Shown here piece after piece: positions 1,290 to 29,156 of a stretch of 29,156 nucleotides of DNA. Under the pieces are notes generated by a model that did not search any database, had not been told where the DNA came from, and saw nothing but the letters and a program-made list of their open reading frames with translations. The position numbers and the translations under genes are program-made. Source of the DNA: a virus. The DNA lies in IMG/VR virus record IMGVR_UViG_3300032360_000039, positions 1 through 29,156 of that record. One strand, 5' to 3'. Position 1 is the stretch's first letter; every line of letters starts with the position of its first letter.

Positions 1290-3123
1290 ATGAAACAGTT
1301 AAAGTTCCTGTAACAGTAAAGGTAGCAACTTTTTCTCCACCTGGGGCTGTTGAAGTTGCATTAGATCCAGGCGCTACTGCTAAAGTAGAAGCAGAAGGAA
1401 ATCTTACAATAACTACACCACCACCTCCAGATTGTAGACCTGAGGCACCTCCACCTGTTCCTGGTGCACCCGCATTAGCCGGTGTATTTCCAGATCCTGT
1501 ACCTCCACCACCACCTGGTACAGCTGGTCCTTGACCACCAGTATTTCCATGCGCTGCACCACCACTTGCTCTTGTTACTGACGCTCCTGTTATTGAAGTA
1601 GCAATTCCCGCACCTGCTGTTCCATAACCTTCACCTGGTGTAGAGGGAGTTCCTGCGCCACCAGCACCACCGCCACCACCACCGCCGTATGTACCAGGCC
1701 ATGTTCCACTATTACCTCCAGGATTACCTTGAGGTTGAGGACTTATAGGAGGCGTATTTCCTGCACCACCAGTATTACCACCACCGCCAGCTCCACCACC
1801 AGATCCTCCAGCCGCACCATTAGGTAATGAACCGCCAGGGAATTGAGATCCTCCGGATCCACCGCCACCATCCGATGTTATTGTATGAAAAGTTGAATTC
1901 TGTCCGTTAGCTCCAAGTGGAAATCCAGTAGCACCACCTGCACCAACAGTGATTGTATAAGCTCCTTCGTAGAATACTGGAAAACCAGCTACTCCTGATC
2001 CTAATGGAGAGGTAGCATAAGAACCAGTATTTGTTCCATCTGATTCTCTATAACCTCCAGCTCCACCACCACCAAAAGTACCGCTCCAGTTACCATTACT
2101 ACCACCGCCACCACCACCGGCAATAACTAAATAATCCATTGCATAAGTTAATAAAAATTTTGGCCACGTTCCAGCTTCTCTTGCTTCAAATTGTGATTTC
2201 ATTGACCACACACCATCTGCTTTATCTAATTCTTTTGTAACTACTACACCTTTACCACCATTTCCACCGGGCTGGATTGCTCCTGGCCAATTAGCAGAAC
2301 CACCTCCGCCACCACCAGTGTTTTCTGTTCCTGCTTCACCTGCTCCACTTCCGGGAGTTCCGCAACCACCACCTCTGCCGCCACCACCATTAGCTGTTCC
2401 GCCTGGTCCATTAGTTATTGATCCACCGCCACCACCGCCAGCGTAAACCCCACAATTAGGATAATCTGATCCTGATCCTCCGAAAACCGGAGTAATATCT
2501 TTTCCAGCACCAGCTGGTCCACCTTTACCAGTTGGAGGAGAACCTTTAGTTCCGACTGCACTTGCTCCACCACCTCCACCACTATGTCTGACTGGTGAGT
2601 TTCCACCGGCTCCGCCAGCATATCCAAACCCATAAGTTCCAGAATCCCCTGGTTCAGCAGATTGATTTGAAGGTCCACCTGTCATACCTGGTGAATCAGT
2701 TGCTCCAGCGCCACCTCCCGAACCTCCAGTAGTTCCTGGACCAACGGGTGCACTAGGATTACCTATTCCCCCACCGCCACCACCTTTAGCTGTTAAAGTA
2801 AAACCTGTTGTATCTGTTCCGGTACATCCTTGAGCGCAGTTATTAGTTCTTCCGGCTCCACCGCCACCAACAACCATTGAATAAGCTGTAGATGTACAAA
2901 CTGCTATTCCGGGGTGTAGAATGAGTCCACCGGCACCGCCGCCACCACCGTTATCTCTTCCACCGCCACCACCGCCAGCTACAACAACAGCCGCAAGCAC
3001 TCTTGTTCCTGATCCTGTAGTAAAACACCCTGTGCAAGTTGTAGTTGTAACTATGCACTTTCCGAAGGAAGTGTTATTTGTTTTTCCGATTATGCCGCCG
3101 TTAGTGGAAGAAATTGTGGCCAT
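1288..3123 (-). CDS. Poly-glycine tail fibre tip / adhesin with two tandem glycine-rich domains
   Basis: 611 aa, extremely glycine-rich. Two similar domains are visible. The first runs from about residue 42 (AAVVVAGGGGGG) to about 296 (GGNGGKGVVVTKEL). The second runs from about 329 (YLVIAGGGGGGS) to about 575 (GGGGVVIVRFP). They are joined by a linker at 300-328 containing GVWSMKSQFEAREAGTWP, a motif I associate with marine phage fibre proteins. Residues 1-41 are Thr/Cys-rich, and about 580-611 forms a short C-terminal cap. Long runs of glycine between hydrophobic turns recall the polyglycine-helix adhesins of T-even-like phages (gp38 type), where exposed loops bind the receptor; that comparison is by composition only. 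It is the last gene of the tail block and lies next to the two modifying enzymes. Host recognition is the likely role. Confidence 0.75.
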   Translation of the reverse strand: MATISSTNGGIIGKTNNTSFGKCIVTTTTCTGCFTTGSGTRVLAAVVVAGGGGGGRDNGGGGGAGGLILHPGIAVCTSTAYSMVVGGGGAGRTNNCAQGCTGTDTTGFTLTAKGGGGGGIGNPSAPVGPGTTGGSGGGAGATDSPGMTGGPSNQSAEPGDSGTYGFGYAGGAGGNSPVRHSGGGGGASAVGTKGSPPTGKGGPAGAGKDITPVFGGSGSDYPNCGVYAGGGGGGSITNGPGGTANGGGGRGGGCGTPGSGAGEAGTENTGGGGGGSANWPGAIQPGGNGGKGVVVTKELDKADGVWSMKSQFEAREAGTWPKFLLTYAMDYLVIAGGGGGGSNGNWSGTFGGGGAGGYRESDGTNTGSYATSPLGSGVAGFPVFYEGAYTITVGAGGATGFPLGANGQNSTFHTITSDGGGGSGGSQFPGGSLPNGAAGGSGGGAGGGGNTGGAGNTPPISPQPQGNPGGNSGTWPGTYGGGGGGGAGGAGTPSTPGEGYGTAGAGIATSITGASVTRASGGAAHGNTGGQGPAVPGGGGGTGSGNTPANAGAPGTGGGASGLQSGGGGVVIVRFPSASTLAVAPGSNATSTAPGGEKVATFTVTGTLTVS

Positions 3124-3135
3124 GTCTTAAGTCTC

Positions 3136-3603
3136 CTACGCGGACACCCAAGTTAGTCCGGATGCGTCCCAGTTGAAATTATTTGTTGGATCTGTGATGT
3201 CTATTGCAGTCCATTGTTGATTGTCTTCATCCCAACCAATATGTTTATCTGTAGTATCAGTTGGAAAAGGAACTGGTGCTTGCCAATCATCATTTCCATC
3301 TAATGCCCAAGATGCGAATGGTTGAGGTTGAATAAATATATCTTTTGCAGAGTCATAAGTAAAACCTCTCCCTGCATATTGTTTTCTAAAATTATGATTA
3401 TAAGAAGTTTGTTTCCAAGTTCCACCTTTGAAAAAATCAATACACCATGATTCTCCATCAATATGCATATCATTATCTACAAGGGTTCCACTACCGGCAG
3501 GAATATCATTGCCTACAACAATTACTCTTTCTACTACTTGTAGTGTGTTAGCAGTATGTCCTGTAGGATCGACTTTTGATTTAAGTTCTGCGAAATGGGC
3601 CAT
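3136..3603 (-). CDS. Conserved marine-phage virion-associated protein (MAHFAEL type)
   Basis: 155 aa. The N-terminus MAHFAEL, the central GGTWKQTSYNHNFRKQYAGRG, the aromatic/proline segment FIQPQPFASW and the final DEDNQQW pattern are features I associate with a small protein often found beside tail-fibre genes of marine cyanophages and related viruses. No catalytic motif is visible. It lies between the adhesin and the 131-aa structural protein, with AGGAGG nine bases before the ATG. A fibre-attachment or fibre-assembly role is inferred from position only. Confidence 0.6.
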   Translation of the reverse strand: MAHFAELKSKVDPTGHTANTLQVVERVIVVGNDIPAGSGTLVDNDMHIDGESWCIDFFKGGTWKQTSYNHNFRKQYAGRGFTYDSAKDIFIQPQPFASWALDGNDDWQAPVPFPTDTTDKHIGWDEDNQQWTAIDITDPTNNFNWDASGLTWVSA

Positions 3604-16669: not shown

Positions 16670-19183
16670 CTATCTTCTAGGACCTTTCAAGATTCTTACG
16701 TCTCTTTGTTTAAACCGATCTTGTTCCCTTTTGAAGTCATTAGACATTTCCTGTTTTGTCAGGGATGTCTCAGCTCTCAGTTCAGCCAGCTCTTCATTTT
16801 GTTCTAATTTTTCATCAAACTGATCTTGACCCATCATTTGCTTAGATCTGTCCAAATTAATTTTTTCTTGGTCTTGTTCTCGTTTTTTAGAATCATCCAT
16901 AGCTCTTAAATCTAGTTCTCTTGCTTTTAATTTAGCAATTGGGTCATTTCCAAATTGTCCCATGATTTTATTTTCTTCTTCCATGAATTCTTGCATCATT
17001 TCGGCAATTAATTTAGCTTTTCTAGACTCTAGCGCCATTGACATCTGCATTAATTGTTGTTGAACTTGCGGATTTTGCTGCATCATTGGGTTCGCTTGGA
17101 GTTGTTGTTGCAATTGTGTCAATTGAGCAATTTCTTCTCTCATTTCTACTTCTAACTGCTCTTGTGCCATCATAGAAATGTGTTCAAAAATGTTTTTTTC
17201 AAGTGCACCGAGTACAACAGGATTATTTCGAGCTAAATTTGTCGACATAAAATTTAAATGGGTTGTAATATGCGCCTGATGGTCCTGACCTTTAAAAGCT
17301 TGAAAAGGTTTATTAGACATTGCCAAAATATTTTCAACTGCCGGGTCCATTGGAGACGGTGGTTGAGGTGGAGGAAGTATTTTATCAACATCTTTCACTC
17401 CAATTGCTTGATACATGTCATGAAACGCTTCATATAAATTATGTAATTGTGGATTTGCCATTGCAAGCTGTAATTCTGTTTGGGCCATAGTAATTCTTTG
17501 TGTTTGAGAAAATATATTAGGATCTGCAATTGGGATAATATCCACTTTATCATCAAAATCTGAAACTTTAATATTCCTGTTTGCTCCTACGACATCATAA
17601 GGATATTCTGGTGGTAAATAAGTTTTAAAAACTCCAGCTAGTAACTGAAATTCCTGCTTCATCGCCACATACAATCTTTTATGTATGGCTGACATGACCC
17701 GTGAGCCTCGCTCTAACAGGGCTATGGTCGTCCCAACAGCGGCCTGCTGGTTGCCGTCCCCGACCTGCATGTCAGCTATGGCGGCAAATCGTTGCCCTGC
17801 CTGTACGACAATACCCATTAATGAGAGTAATGTTTGCGAGGGCTCCTTAAAAGGAAGAGGCATAAATGCATCTCTGATGTTTCCACCAGGAGCATCCACA
17901 TCTCTAAATTCACCAGGTTGTATTGCTTGGGCTTCGTCTCTTACACGAATGCCTCTTTGCTTAAACCCTGCAGGTAAATTACTTAATGTACCTGCGTCCA
18001 ATAGTTGACGTAACGCGGTTGTTGCGGTTCTTGATAAACCACCAATCATATGAATTAAACCTAATCCATAAAAACCTAGACCCGGTAAAAATTTAAAGTG
18101 AACAAAATATTCAATTTTTAATTTTTGCGGATCTTCAATTTGGTAATTTCTTCTGATTGATAAAACTTCTCTGGAAGCTATTTCTACAGTTACAATATAA
18201 GGTAGTTTAATTCCAGTTGGTTCTTGAGACTCGGGATCCATGTCTTCAAATCCTTCTAAATCTAAATTTACATGACATTCAATTAAGGTAAAAACATCTT
18301 CGTCTCTAGTTTTTTTAAGTCCTTCTAATTCTCTTTCTTTTTTCTTAACTTCTGATTCTGTATCATAACCAGGTTTTAGTTCTATATCTCTATAAAATCC
18401 TGCTACCTGTTTTTTTCTTAAGTCATTTTCAGAAATTTTAATTGTATGCATAACTGCTTCTGCGTCTTGAAGTGAAGTTGCAGTGTATGGGACAACTAAA
18501 TCATCTGCCGGAACAAATTTTGATACGGCTCTGCCCAAAAGTTCATCGTAATAAACTTTTTTAAACGCAGAGCCGGCGAGAGGGAGATAAAAAAGCAGTT
18601 GATCGAACTCGGGTTCAAACTCCTTCATCACATCCATGAGCTGATAGTTCATGAAATTTTTTACTCTAACAGATTGATCTTCTTTCTGTCGGTCCGGTCT
18701 GCCCATTACTTGGGTATGAACAGGACCTGTTGCTGGCAGCAATTCTTTATAAGCTTGTGCTTGAAACTGTGTTACAGACTCTGCAAGGACCGGGTGCGTG
18801 GCACCGGAAGCTCCTTGAAAGGGTTGTGTTGGATTTTCATATTTAAATCCTAAAAGATCTAAACCTTTAGTATAAGTATCTTCCCAGTCTTTTCTGGAAG
18901 ATTTATACATCATATAATTTTCATTTAATTCAGAACCGAGTTTTCCTAAGACATCATCTGGAAGTAAATCTGCTAAATTGTCAAAATGGCCTTCTCCGCC
19001 CGGTTGATTAACCGCATTCGGATTAAAATTTATTTCAACGCTGCCATCATCTTGTTGCTCGACTTTAACATCATCAGGACTAACTTGAGTTATTCCCGTT
19101 TCTTTTTGAGCAATGATTTCTTCTTCAGGTGGAAGTGTTATCGTTTGCTCTACGTTAGGTAGAGCTTTGTCTATGTCTGCCAT
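16670..19183 (-). CDS. Portal protein (long P22-like type)
   Basis: 837 aa. After an acidic N-terminus the core carries YTKGLDLLGFKYENPTQPFQ, ASGATHPVLAESVTQFQAQA, LLPATGPVHTQVMG, SAFKKVYYDELLGRAVSKFV and the region GIRVRDEAQAIQPGEFRDVD, typical of portal proteins of marine podoviruses. The last 200 residues (from about 640) are a long Gln/Glu/Lys-rich helical barrel-like tail with QLQQQLQANPMMQQNPQVQQ. Portals form the dodecameric DNA entry/exit ring at one capsid vertex, binding terminase during packaging and the adaptor afterwards. The length is close to P22-type portals with a barrel. The region coding about residues 455-500 (17685-17815) is richer in G+C than the rest. Confidence 0.9.
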   Translation of the reverse strand: MADIDKALPNVEQTITLPPEEEIIAQKETGITQVSPDDVKVEQQDDGSVEINFNPNAVNQPGGEGHFDNLADLLPDDVLGKLGSELNENYMMYKSSRKDWEDTYTKGLDLLGFKYENPTQPFQGASGATHPVLAESVTQFQAQAYKELLPATGPVHTQVMGRPDRQKEDQSVRVKNFMNYQLMDVMKEFEPEFDQLLFYLPLAGSAFKKVYYDELLGRAVSKFVPADDLVVPYTATSLQDAEAVMHTIKISENDLRKKQVAGFYRDIELKPGYDTESEVKKKERELEGLKKTRDEDVFTLIECHVNLDLEGFEDMDPESQEPTGIKLPYIVTVEIASREVLSIRRNYQIEDPQKLKIEYFVHFKFLPGLGFYGLGLIHMIGGLSRTATTALRQLLDAGTLSNLPAGFKQRGIRVRDEAQAIQPGEFRDVDAPGGNIRDAFMPLPFKEPSQTLLSLMGIVVQAGQRFAAIADMQVGDGNQQAAVGTTIALLERGSRVMSAIHKRLYVAMKQEFQLLAGVFKTYLPPEYPYDVVGANRNIKVSDFDDKVDIIPIADPNIFSQTQRITMAQTELQLAMANPQLHNLYEAFHDMYQAIGVKDVDKILPPPQPPSPMDPAVENILAMSNKPFQAFKGQDHQAHITTHLNFMSTNLARNNPVVLGALEKNIFEHISMMAQEQLEVEMREEIAQLTQLQQQLQANPMMQQNPQVQQQLMQMSMALESRKAKLIAEMMQEFMEEENKIMGQFGNDPIAKLKARELDLRAMDDSKKREQDQEKINLDRSKQMMGQDQFDEKLEQNEELAELRAETSLTKQEMSNDFKREQDRFKQRDVRILKGPRR

Positions 19184-28461: not shown

Positions 28462-28507
28462 GTATTCTCCTTTTTATTTTTATTTTGCATTATTTTTAAT
28501 TTACACT

Positions 28508-28526
28508 ATTGACATTCTTTGTCAAT
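28508..28526. promoter_or_regulatory. Palindrome carrying -35-like elements on both strands
   Basis: ATTGACA (28508-28514) and TGTCAAT (28520-28526) are exact reverse complements around TTCTT. The plus strand offers TTGACA, 17 bases, TATATA (28532-28537), pointing into the repeat array. The minus strand offers TTGACA, 16 bases, TAAATT (28503-28498), pointing to the 327-aa gene. Both -10 matches are only moderate. Confidence 0.5.
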
Positions 28527-28581
28527 GGGATTATATATTATTTTATATTATTTAAAAAAACTTAATATAACATTTAAGCAT

Positions 28582-28617
28582 ACTTGCAGTTGGCAGTAAA
28601 AAAACGCAACTGCAAGT
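28582..28617. repeat. 11-bp hairpin in the noncoding region
   Basis: ACTTGCAGTTG (28582-28592) and CAACTGCAAGT (28607-28617) are exact reverse complements around a 14-base A-rich loop. No T-run follows on either strand, so it is not a typical terminator. Confidence 0.7.
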
Positions 28618-28644
28618 TGCAGAAAGAAGATACAACCTGAGATT

Positions 28645-28675
28645 GAAAAAAAATTTTTTTATATTTATATAAAAT
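28645..28675. other. AT-rich tract next to the repeat array
   Basis: An uninterrupted run of A and T, beginning with eight A and seven T and continuing TATATTTATATAAAA. Such tracts melt easily and are typical of unwinding elements beside replication initiator sites; here it sits directly before the first large inverted repeat. Confidence 0.5.
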
Positions 28676-28696
28676 GTAAGGGTTCAAGCTACAAGC

Positions 28697-28794
28697 TCTG
28701 ATCTCAGATCTATTGGCACAGGTGCAACTGTGATTGGCGGGAGGCCTCTGTTAACACCCAGAGAAAGCCACATTCCAATAGATCTGAGATCAGA
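28697..28794. repeat. Array unit A: 20-bp perfect inverted repeat with two inner hairpins
   Basis: The arms are 28697-28716 and 28775-28794, exact reverse complements over 20 bases (TCTGATCTCAGATCTATTGG). The 58-base interior contains CACAG/CTGTG (28717-28721, 28728-28732) and CTCTG/CAGAG (28746-28750, 28759-28763), so the whole folds as a cloverleaf. Each arm has two GATC sites 7 bases apart. Confidence 0.9.
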
Positions 28795-28825
28795 TGTTGT
28801 AACTGCGGGAAATTAACCGCTATAG

Positions 28826-28886
28826 TACAGGTCTTACGCTGGGAATTCTACATGGTATGTAATCGCTTGCGTCATGCCGACCTGCA
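28826..28886. repeat. Array unit D: nested hairpin between units A and B
   Basis: CAGGTC (28828-28833) pairs with GACCTG (28879-28884), with flanking GT/AC beyond one mismatch. Inside, ACGC/GCGT (28836-28839, 28869-28872) and TACAT/ATGTA (28849-28853, 28857-28861) nest in the same order. The sequence is unrelated to units A-C. Confidence 0.6.
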
Positions 28887-28897
28887 CAGGACAGCAA

Positions 28898-28958
28898 CTG
28901 ATCCCTGATCCATTGTACTAATACGGCCGATGAGACTGTTCAATGGATCTGGGATCAG
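28898..28958. repeat. Array unit B: 18-bp inverted repeat
   Basis: The left arm 28898-28915 (CTGATCC twice in tandem, then ATTG) pairs with the right arm 28941-28958 at 17 of 18 positions; the exception is a T/T mismatch. The loop is 25 bases. The arms match units A and C in sequence and in the 7-base spacing of GATC. Confidence 0.9.
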
Positions 28959-29004
28959 GTTGTGTGATGCTTACTCTGGTTAACGCGGGAGAATAGCAAT
29001 TACA

Positions 29005-29092
29005 CCTGATCCCTGATCCAATTGATTCGTACTATGCATAGTGCGTATTTTGTAAGAGTACTCTTACATAGACAGTTGGATCTGGGATCAGG
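29005..29092. repeat. Array unit C: 20-bp inverted repeat with two inner palindromes
   Basis: The left arm 29005-29024 pairs with the right arm 29073-29092, with one T/G wobble and the same T/T mismatch as unit B. The 48-base interior contains the perfect palindromes ACTATGCATAGT (29031-29042) and an 18-mer TGTAAGAGTACTCTTACA (29051-29068), again giving a cloverleaf as in unit A. Confidence 0.9.
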
Positions 29093-29156
29093 AATATGAA
29101 TAAAAATCACGCGCTCTGCGGCCGGCCTATACATTGCGCCAGGTTTTGCTCATATG

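Follow-up and report, generated by a model that had tools for sequence, protein, structure and literature searches.

The window analysed here, the whole stretch of 29,156 bases, ends in a gene-free region of 695 nt (28462-29156) that reaches the contig end, opens with an AT-rich tract (22% G+C at 28462-28680) and carries an array of three related inverted repeats, units A, B and C (Table 1). These features had been described in the original prediction and were borne out, as were the inner hairpins of units A and C and the 12 GATC sites of the array, which lie two in each arm and 7 bases apart. The compensatory change claimed between units was also found: stem positions 7 and 14 are T-A in unit A and C-G in unit B, on both arms. 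At stem position 9, units B and C both keep the T/T mismatch that had been noticed, where unit A has an A-T pair. The + strand has stops in all three frames across 28544-29156, with no long open frame. A protein-coding reading of the array, from an ATG at 29096 whose frame is open to the contig end, was rejected, as relatives show a 3′ RNA module there.

The region adjoins a divergent gene, and a single-sequence structure prediction of its 327-aa product gave a pLDDT of 36. At its edge the contig carries a tryptophan halogenase-like gene (1-600, - strand), adjoined by a 2OG-Fe(II) oxygenase gene (597-1223, - strand); the oxygenase gene has 82% DNA identity to pelagiphage HTVC033P.

Table 1. 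Features of the window; loci of relatives are numbered with the prefix L.
Feature	Position	Strand	Remarks
Divergent gene, 327 aa	27478..28461	-	Function unknown; locus marker in all relatives
P1, sigma-70-type promoter	28509..28537	+	-35 TTGACA 28509-28514, 17-nt spacer, -10 TATATA 28532-28537
Dyad TTGACAttcttTGTCAA	28509-28525		Overlaps P1; probably an operator
5′ hairpin of the RNA	28578..28620	+	Predicted fold; equivalent sequence in L311 and L312
Unit A	28698..28793	+	Core CTGATCTCAG/CTGAGATCAG, fully paired variant
Unit A tip			Two inner hairpins; loop palindrome TGTTAACA at 28749
Backbone domain between units	28794..28897	+	Conserved; own variable inner hairpins
Backbone stems			UGUUGUA...ACAACAA closing stem; CUGYGGG...CCGCUAUAG hairpin; CAGGU...CCUG stem
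Unit B	28898..28958	+	Core CTGATCCCTG/CTGGGATCAG with U·U
Unit B tip			CATTGTACTAATACGGCCGATGAGACTGTTCAATG; near-identical copy on a different stem in L005 and L057
Linker hairpin, B to C	28960..29005	+	GTTAAC in loop
Unit C	29006..29091	+	Core with U·U; tip consists of two hairpins
Unit C tip hairpins			Perfect 12-nt palindromes, ACTATGCATAGT at 29031 and AAGAGTACTCTT at 29054
Start of 3′ module	29092..29156	+	GGAATATGAATAAAAATCACGCG...CAGGTTTTGCTCATATG; cut by contig end

The last part of the window (29072-29154) matches L311 and L312 at 91.7%. In L311, a complete relative, the 3′ module runs on to a second promoter, P2 (CTTGACA-N17-TAGGAT). L311, which shares 87% protein identity, has one unit compared with three in the window, with matching flanks. 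The 29,156-base virus record is most likely a fragment, and the element is therefore cut at 29156.

The array recurs at one place in related phages

We fetched relatives through the divergent 327-aa protein alone, to guard against circularity. The resulting set consists of the 80 relatives closest to the window protein, mostly on contig fragments, and results from it apply to this clade. The hairpin core CTGATCCCTG...CTGGGATCAG was present within 1500 nt in 61 of the 69 protein-selected loci with enough sequence, and had no occurrence in 453 kb of control sequence, both strands counted. Since the core is found at the same place in relatives and never in the control, the array is not a product of chance. 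The original prediction had held that relatives lacking the array, or arms drifting without compensation, would speak against a selected structure; the relatives came out the opposite way. The absence of the core from 8 of the 69 loci indicates that this form is not indispensable. In three of four core-less relatives inspected (L316, L357 and L367), the same slot behind the promoter is occupied by a single short, conserved hairpin, GGTGTTGCTATCAGTGTGATG, which is possibly a minimal form.

The GATC sites had been presented as a conserved feature of the arms, and this has to be corrected. The inner GATC is often GGTC/GACC or another complementary pair in relatives, and what is conserved instead is CTGATCCCTG/CTGGGATCAG with the T/T mismatch. 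We also rejected a function as GATC (Dam-type) sites, because the inner site is replaced, with compensation, by GGTC/GACC and others. GATC is in excess across the window as a whole (122 against 80.5±8.8 expected), also outside the array.

The exact arms of units B and C occur in 82 stretches of viral contigs, and the GGTC/GACC arm variant gave at least 120 matches in viral contigs. Loci selected by the pattern reach divergent-protein identities down to about 23-25%. Among 84,980 bacterial and archaeal genomes there was one match, to a 6.5-kb Flavobacterium single-cell scaffold with a phage GP88 gene. Wherever the flanking genes are present, the element has the leftward gene on one side and a rightward GP88 gene (PF17338) on the other, and its orientation is the same. 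Comparison of the whole region with cultured phages at the DNA level gave short chance matches only, and cultured relatives were reached through the protein. The cultured phage HTVC027P (host Ca. Pelagibacter HTCC1062) carries the element in an unannotated gap (17671-18218) between the small and large terminase genes, where, together with gp34-gp32, it forms a block inverted against the surrounding genes. The environmental genome 023Pt_psg01 carries a unit directly before the GP88 gene; HTVC033P lacks the element. HTVC023P-type phages are described as globally widespread on SAR11.

Covariation and folding on the + strand

The stem was analysed in 92 distinct units from the protein-selected loci, detected with one mismatch allowed per arm. 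Stem positions 1-10 hardly vary, in part by construction of the detection, and position 9 is T/T (U·U) in 89 of the 92 units. At positions 11-16, Watson-Crick pairs make up 79-93%, compared with 31-77% expected. At the same positions G·T outnumbers A·C by 30 to 4 (73 to 4 in a larger set); G·U so far above A·C indicates that the structure is formed on the + strand. Covariation, calculated over all 68 distinct arms, was 0.376, compared with 0.123 after shuffling and 0.05-0.09 after sliding, and none of 500 shuffles reached the observed value. Cells with double changes numbered 162 (56 shuffled, 14-47 slid), revealing compensatory change.

The + strand gave the better fold in 297 of 357 units (Wilcoxon p about 1e-43). 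Folding of the window array on both strands, as had been suggested, produced structures far stabler than shuffles (z of -8.7 on the + strand and -10.2 on the - strand), and for 12 whole loci z was -3.6 to -9.8, compared with -3.3 to +1.0 for control stretches. The 110-nt backbone domain (28794-28897 in the window) covaries as well, 9 of its 22 predicted pairs having changed on both sides among 20 sequences. We consider it nearly certain that the RNA is real.

Two promoters delimit a probable transcription unit

A TTGACA-N17-TATATT/A-like promoter with a similar dyad precedes the first unit on the + strand in most of 64 loci. The mean best mismatch score for P1 was 1.6, compared with 3.4 in shuffles, and the dyad across it is typically CTTGACAATAGGATWGTCAAG, followed by TATATT. 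P2 (CTTGACA-N17-TAGGAT or similar) follows the array in 50 of 60 loci. From the positions of the two promoters, the length of the RNA is estimated at 256-1000 nt. Short heptad repeats, CAAGCTTCAAGC, lie upstream of P2 in most loci (for example L002, oriented 3260-3300) and at 28684-28697 in the window; the small low-complexity ORFs (KLQASS...) that can be read from them are probably not genes. A 31-nt match (93.5%) of the AT-rich promoter side of L005 (oriented about 2779-2809) to sequence that lacks annotation in 43 Lactococcus phages was set aside as probably due to chance.

In HTVC027P, gp33 and gp34, directly downstream of the RNA, are grouped in a temporal cluster of their own (6-9 h) in the published RNA-seq study, which gives genes only (PMC12753301). 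This supports separate regulation of the unit, as a result that concerns the genes and not the RNA itself. Positions 28509-29156 of the window comprise the promoter of a modular structured RNA found in HTVC023P-type pelagiphages and the greater part of that RNA, which is truncated by the contig end.

Hairpin tips are exchanged and carry palindromic loops

The closed hairpin ends of 471 units, which we call tips, fell into 270 clusters. Among 109 recurrent tips, 73 are each found with two or more left flanks and two or more right flanks, and nine different tips share a single flank pair. Tips at least 85% alike are common to phages whose divergent proteins are 25-35% identical (21 locus pairs). 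In L005 the unit B tip of the window is found on a GATCATTATTTGCTGGACC stem. The same tips also occur on a second socket stem, ACTGATCATTATTTGCTGGACC...GGTCCTGCTAATAATAGTATCAGT, which has CUG/CUG U·U mismatches and is present in many loci, among them L005 (at about 3088-3170, oriented). Tips outside the core units keep the + orientation in 65 of 67 placements (2 minus), and the two inner hairpins of the backbone domain recombine independently. To our knowledge, hairpin ends swapped as interchangeable parts between distant viruses have not been described for any RNA.

The apical loops of the tips are enriched in palindromes. A 6-nt self-complementary stretch occurs in 34 of the 154 loops of at least 6 nt (10.1±2.8 shuffled), and the rate of self-complementarity is 0.050 in tip loops against 0.022 elsewhere in tips. 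In the family CTATTA[GC]TG...GTGAAGAG the centre is palindromic in 21 of 23 non-redundant members (6.7±2.2 shuffled), mostly with different sequences, and spans at least 8 nt in 12 of them (1.8 shuffled). The palindromes of the window array are TGTTAACA, GAATTC, CGGCCG, GTTAAC, ACTATGCATAGT and AAGAGTACTCTT. When all 5-bp hairpins of the locus were scanned, the excess was modest and weaker than in tips, which limits the support for kissing to a subset of the tips. In OLE and GOLLD, changing palindromes at one loop position have been taken as evidence of intermolecular kissing (PMC12286853). The self-complementary tip loops appear as would be expected for symmetric kissing loops.

Relation to known RNAs and elements

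No known family fits the whole RNA, and RF02976 fits one module of some members. Rfam covariance models, those of GOLLD, ROOL, OLE and HEARO included, gave no match in the window at the gathering score; at a relaxed threshold there were chance matches only, and none in the array approached a gathering score. No tRNA or tmRNA was found in the 29-kb window, no tRNA is annotated around the locus in HTVC027P, and our literature search returned no marine phage structured RNA. RF02976 (Flavobacterium-1, 121-nt model) was the only Rfam family matched by relatives. It matches the 3′ domain of the RNA in L005, L086 and HTVC027P with 90-106 bits, and 30 loci hold both RF02976 and the core; the window, which lacks the 3′ end of the RNA, gives no match to it. 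The 3′ module is of several types, namely RF02976 (in the three loci just named), the module starting at 29092 in the window, or others, and RF02976 covers one such module in a subset of loci only.

In 80 other loci (including L125, L121 and L090) the RF02976 module is present but core units are not, and the module seems to exist as a small stand-alone RNA too; several of these core-less modules are on the strand opposite to the GP88 gene, at a distance of a few kb. L086 (KB911123.1, 364-771 and 1377-1973) is the Flavobacterium single-cell scaffold mentioned above. Since this sole cellular scaffold carries a phage GP88 gene, the name Flavobacterium-1 probably misstates the host and reflects co-sorted or infecting phage DNA.

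Like the present RNA, GOLLD and ROOL are large (about 0.6-0.9 kb), ornate and phage-encoded, with a biological role that is unknown (PMC12286853). They are phage and prophage nanocage RNAs in which kissing loops join copies of one RNA (PMC12286853); the self-complementary, changing loops of the present RNA, which is known from sequence, may do the same. In GOLLD the 3′ part is conserved and the 5′ part variable, and changes of its palindromic loops have been read as intermolecular pairing (PMC12286853). Unlike GOLLD and ROOL, the present RNA has no Rfam match to either and no adjoining tRNA genes, its peripheral hairpins are shuffled between phages, and its palindromes are far more diverse.

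Two other kinds of element resemble the array in part. The HK022 put sites and the T7 early RNase III sites are repeated hairpins with a conserved stem sequence behind an early promoter, as in the present RNA, which, however, differs from them in sequence, has exchangeable tips, and is followed by genes with their own P2. Integron attC sites form arrays in which conserved arms with mismatches surround a hypervariable terminal structure, again as here. Unlike attC, the units have no RYYYAAC/GTTRRRY core at the arm ends (the arms end in CTGATC/GATCAG in all units read) and no cassette genes between them, and their structure is selected on the transcribed + strand.

Discussion

We propose, with a probability of about one half, that these phages encode an untranslated modular structured RNA of about 0.26-1.0 kb, with exchangeable tips, that self-assembles in trans; its function would most likely be that of a self-assembling RNA scaffold. 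Transcription of the RNA on the + strand would start at P1, a regulated promoter of its own with early-to-middle timing, and proceed divergently from the 327-aa gene; the RNA would lie just upstream of P2 of the small GP88-containing operon. Its frame may be a chain of socket stems, with the near-invariant CUGAUCCCUG/CUGGGAUCAG and its U·U, together with the backbone domains. Interchangeable hairpin tips would plug into the sockets, and phages would exchange them by recombination at the conserved arms. We infer that the RNA is made and that it acts in trans. Palindromic loops could allow symmetric kissing between copies of the same RNA, giving homo-oligomers as in OLE, ROOL and GOLLD, and the variable palindromes might serve as interchangeable self-recognition codes during host takeover. 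More tentatively, the RNA may be combinatorial, its socket stems drawing tips from an ocean-wide pool and its loops forming a self-recognition code, so that it would multimerise with its own kind and not with the RNA of a competing phage.

The main rival, possible though rather doubtful in our view, is a cis-acting leader of the GP88 operon, the hairpins of which would act on their own transcript or on the polymerase, with the U·U core as recognition element. Such a leader could work by antitermination like HK022 put, provide RNase III processing sites, or be regulatory. It would account for an array that is always upstream of the GP88 operon and co-oriented with it, in 1-4 copies behind an early promoter, and directly before the GP88 gene in 023Pt_psg01; the near-invariant core sequence is as expected of a protein site. 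However, in the 50 loci where P2 follows the array it separates the RNA from the genes, so these need not be read through the RNA, and a simple leader explains neither the tip shuffling nor the palindromic loops; the length of up to 1 kb also speaks against it.

Two further readings are weaker than the leader. The tips may be decoys or aptamers, each binding a different host factor (toxin, nuclease, sensor or RNA-binding protein), as counter-defence cargo exchanged on a common scaffold. Hypervariable, horizontally exchanged tips on constant sockets would suit this, as would the inverted, separately transcribed island in HTVC027P and the early-to-middle expression of the neighbouring genes (PMC12753301). 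We nevertheless consider decoys unlikely: no tip matched a known RNA in Rfam, and loops that are ever-changing yet self-complementary are not expected of them.

An element acting as DNA, be it a replication origin, a packaging or recombination site, a mobile cassette of hairpins or a by-product left by template switching at quasi-palindromes, is very improbable despite the inverted repeats, the AT-rich tract, the cassette-like exchange and the position between both terminase genes in HTVC027P, as it is opposed by the G·U over A·C asymmetry and stabler + strand, the orientation fixed relative to flanking genes and kept by stray tips, the promoter reading into the array, and the mismatch, which template switching should erase. 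Of the options offered in the original prediction, nothing supports the origin. The GC-skew change suggested as its sign did not appear: cumulative skew over HTVC027P 1-50000 makes no turn and climbs steadily with the gene strand, with only a local dip over the inverted island, and the invariant part of the array is a stem with a kept mismatch, not a direct iteron. Nothing points to a packaging site, an option kept because the RNA of HTVC027P sits between the small and large terminase genes. The multi-domain noncoding RNA is the option that stands, supported by the co-oriented upstream promoter, the constant orientation, the covariation, the G·U preference and the more stable + strand.

This RNA, which lacks annotation even in a member that has been cultured and RNA-sequenced, would be a new class among the large structured RNAs of phages. 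Its architecture would evolve by swaps of hairpin domains, much as proteins swap domains, and hundreds of natural variants would be on offer for tests of RNA self-assembly. The orphan Rfam family RF02976 would gain a context, and HTVC027P on HTCC1062 would provide a concrete cultured system.
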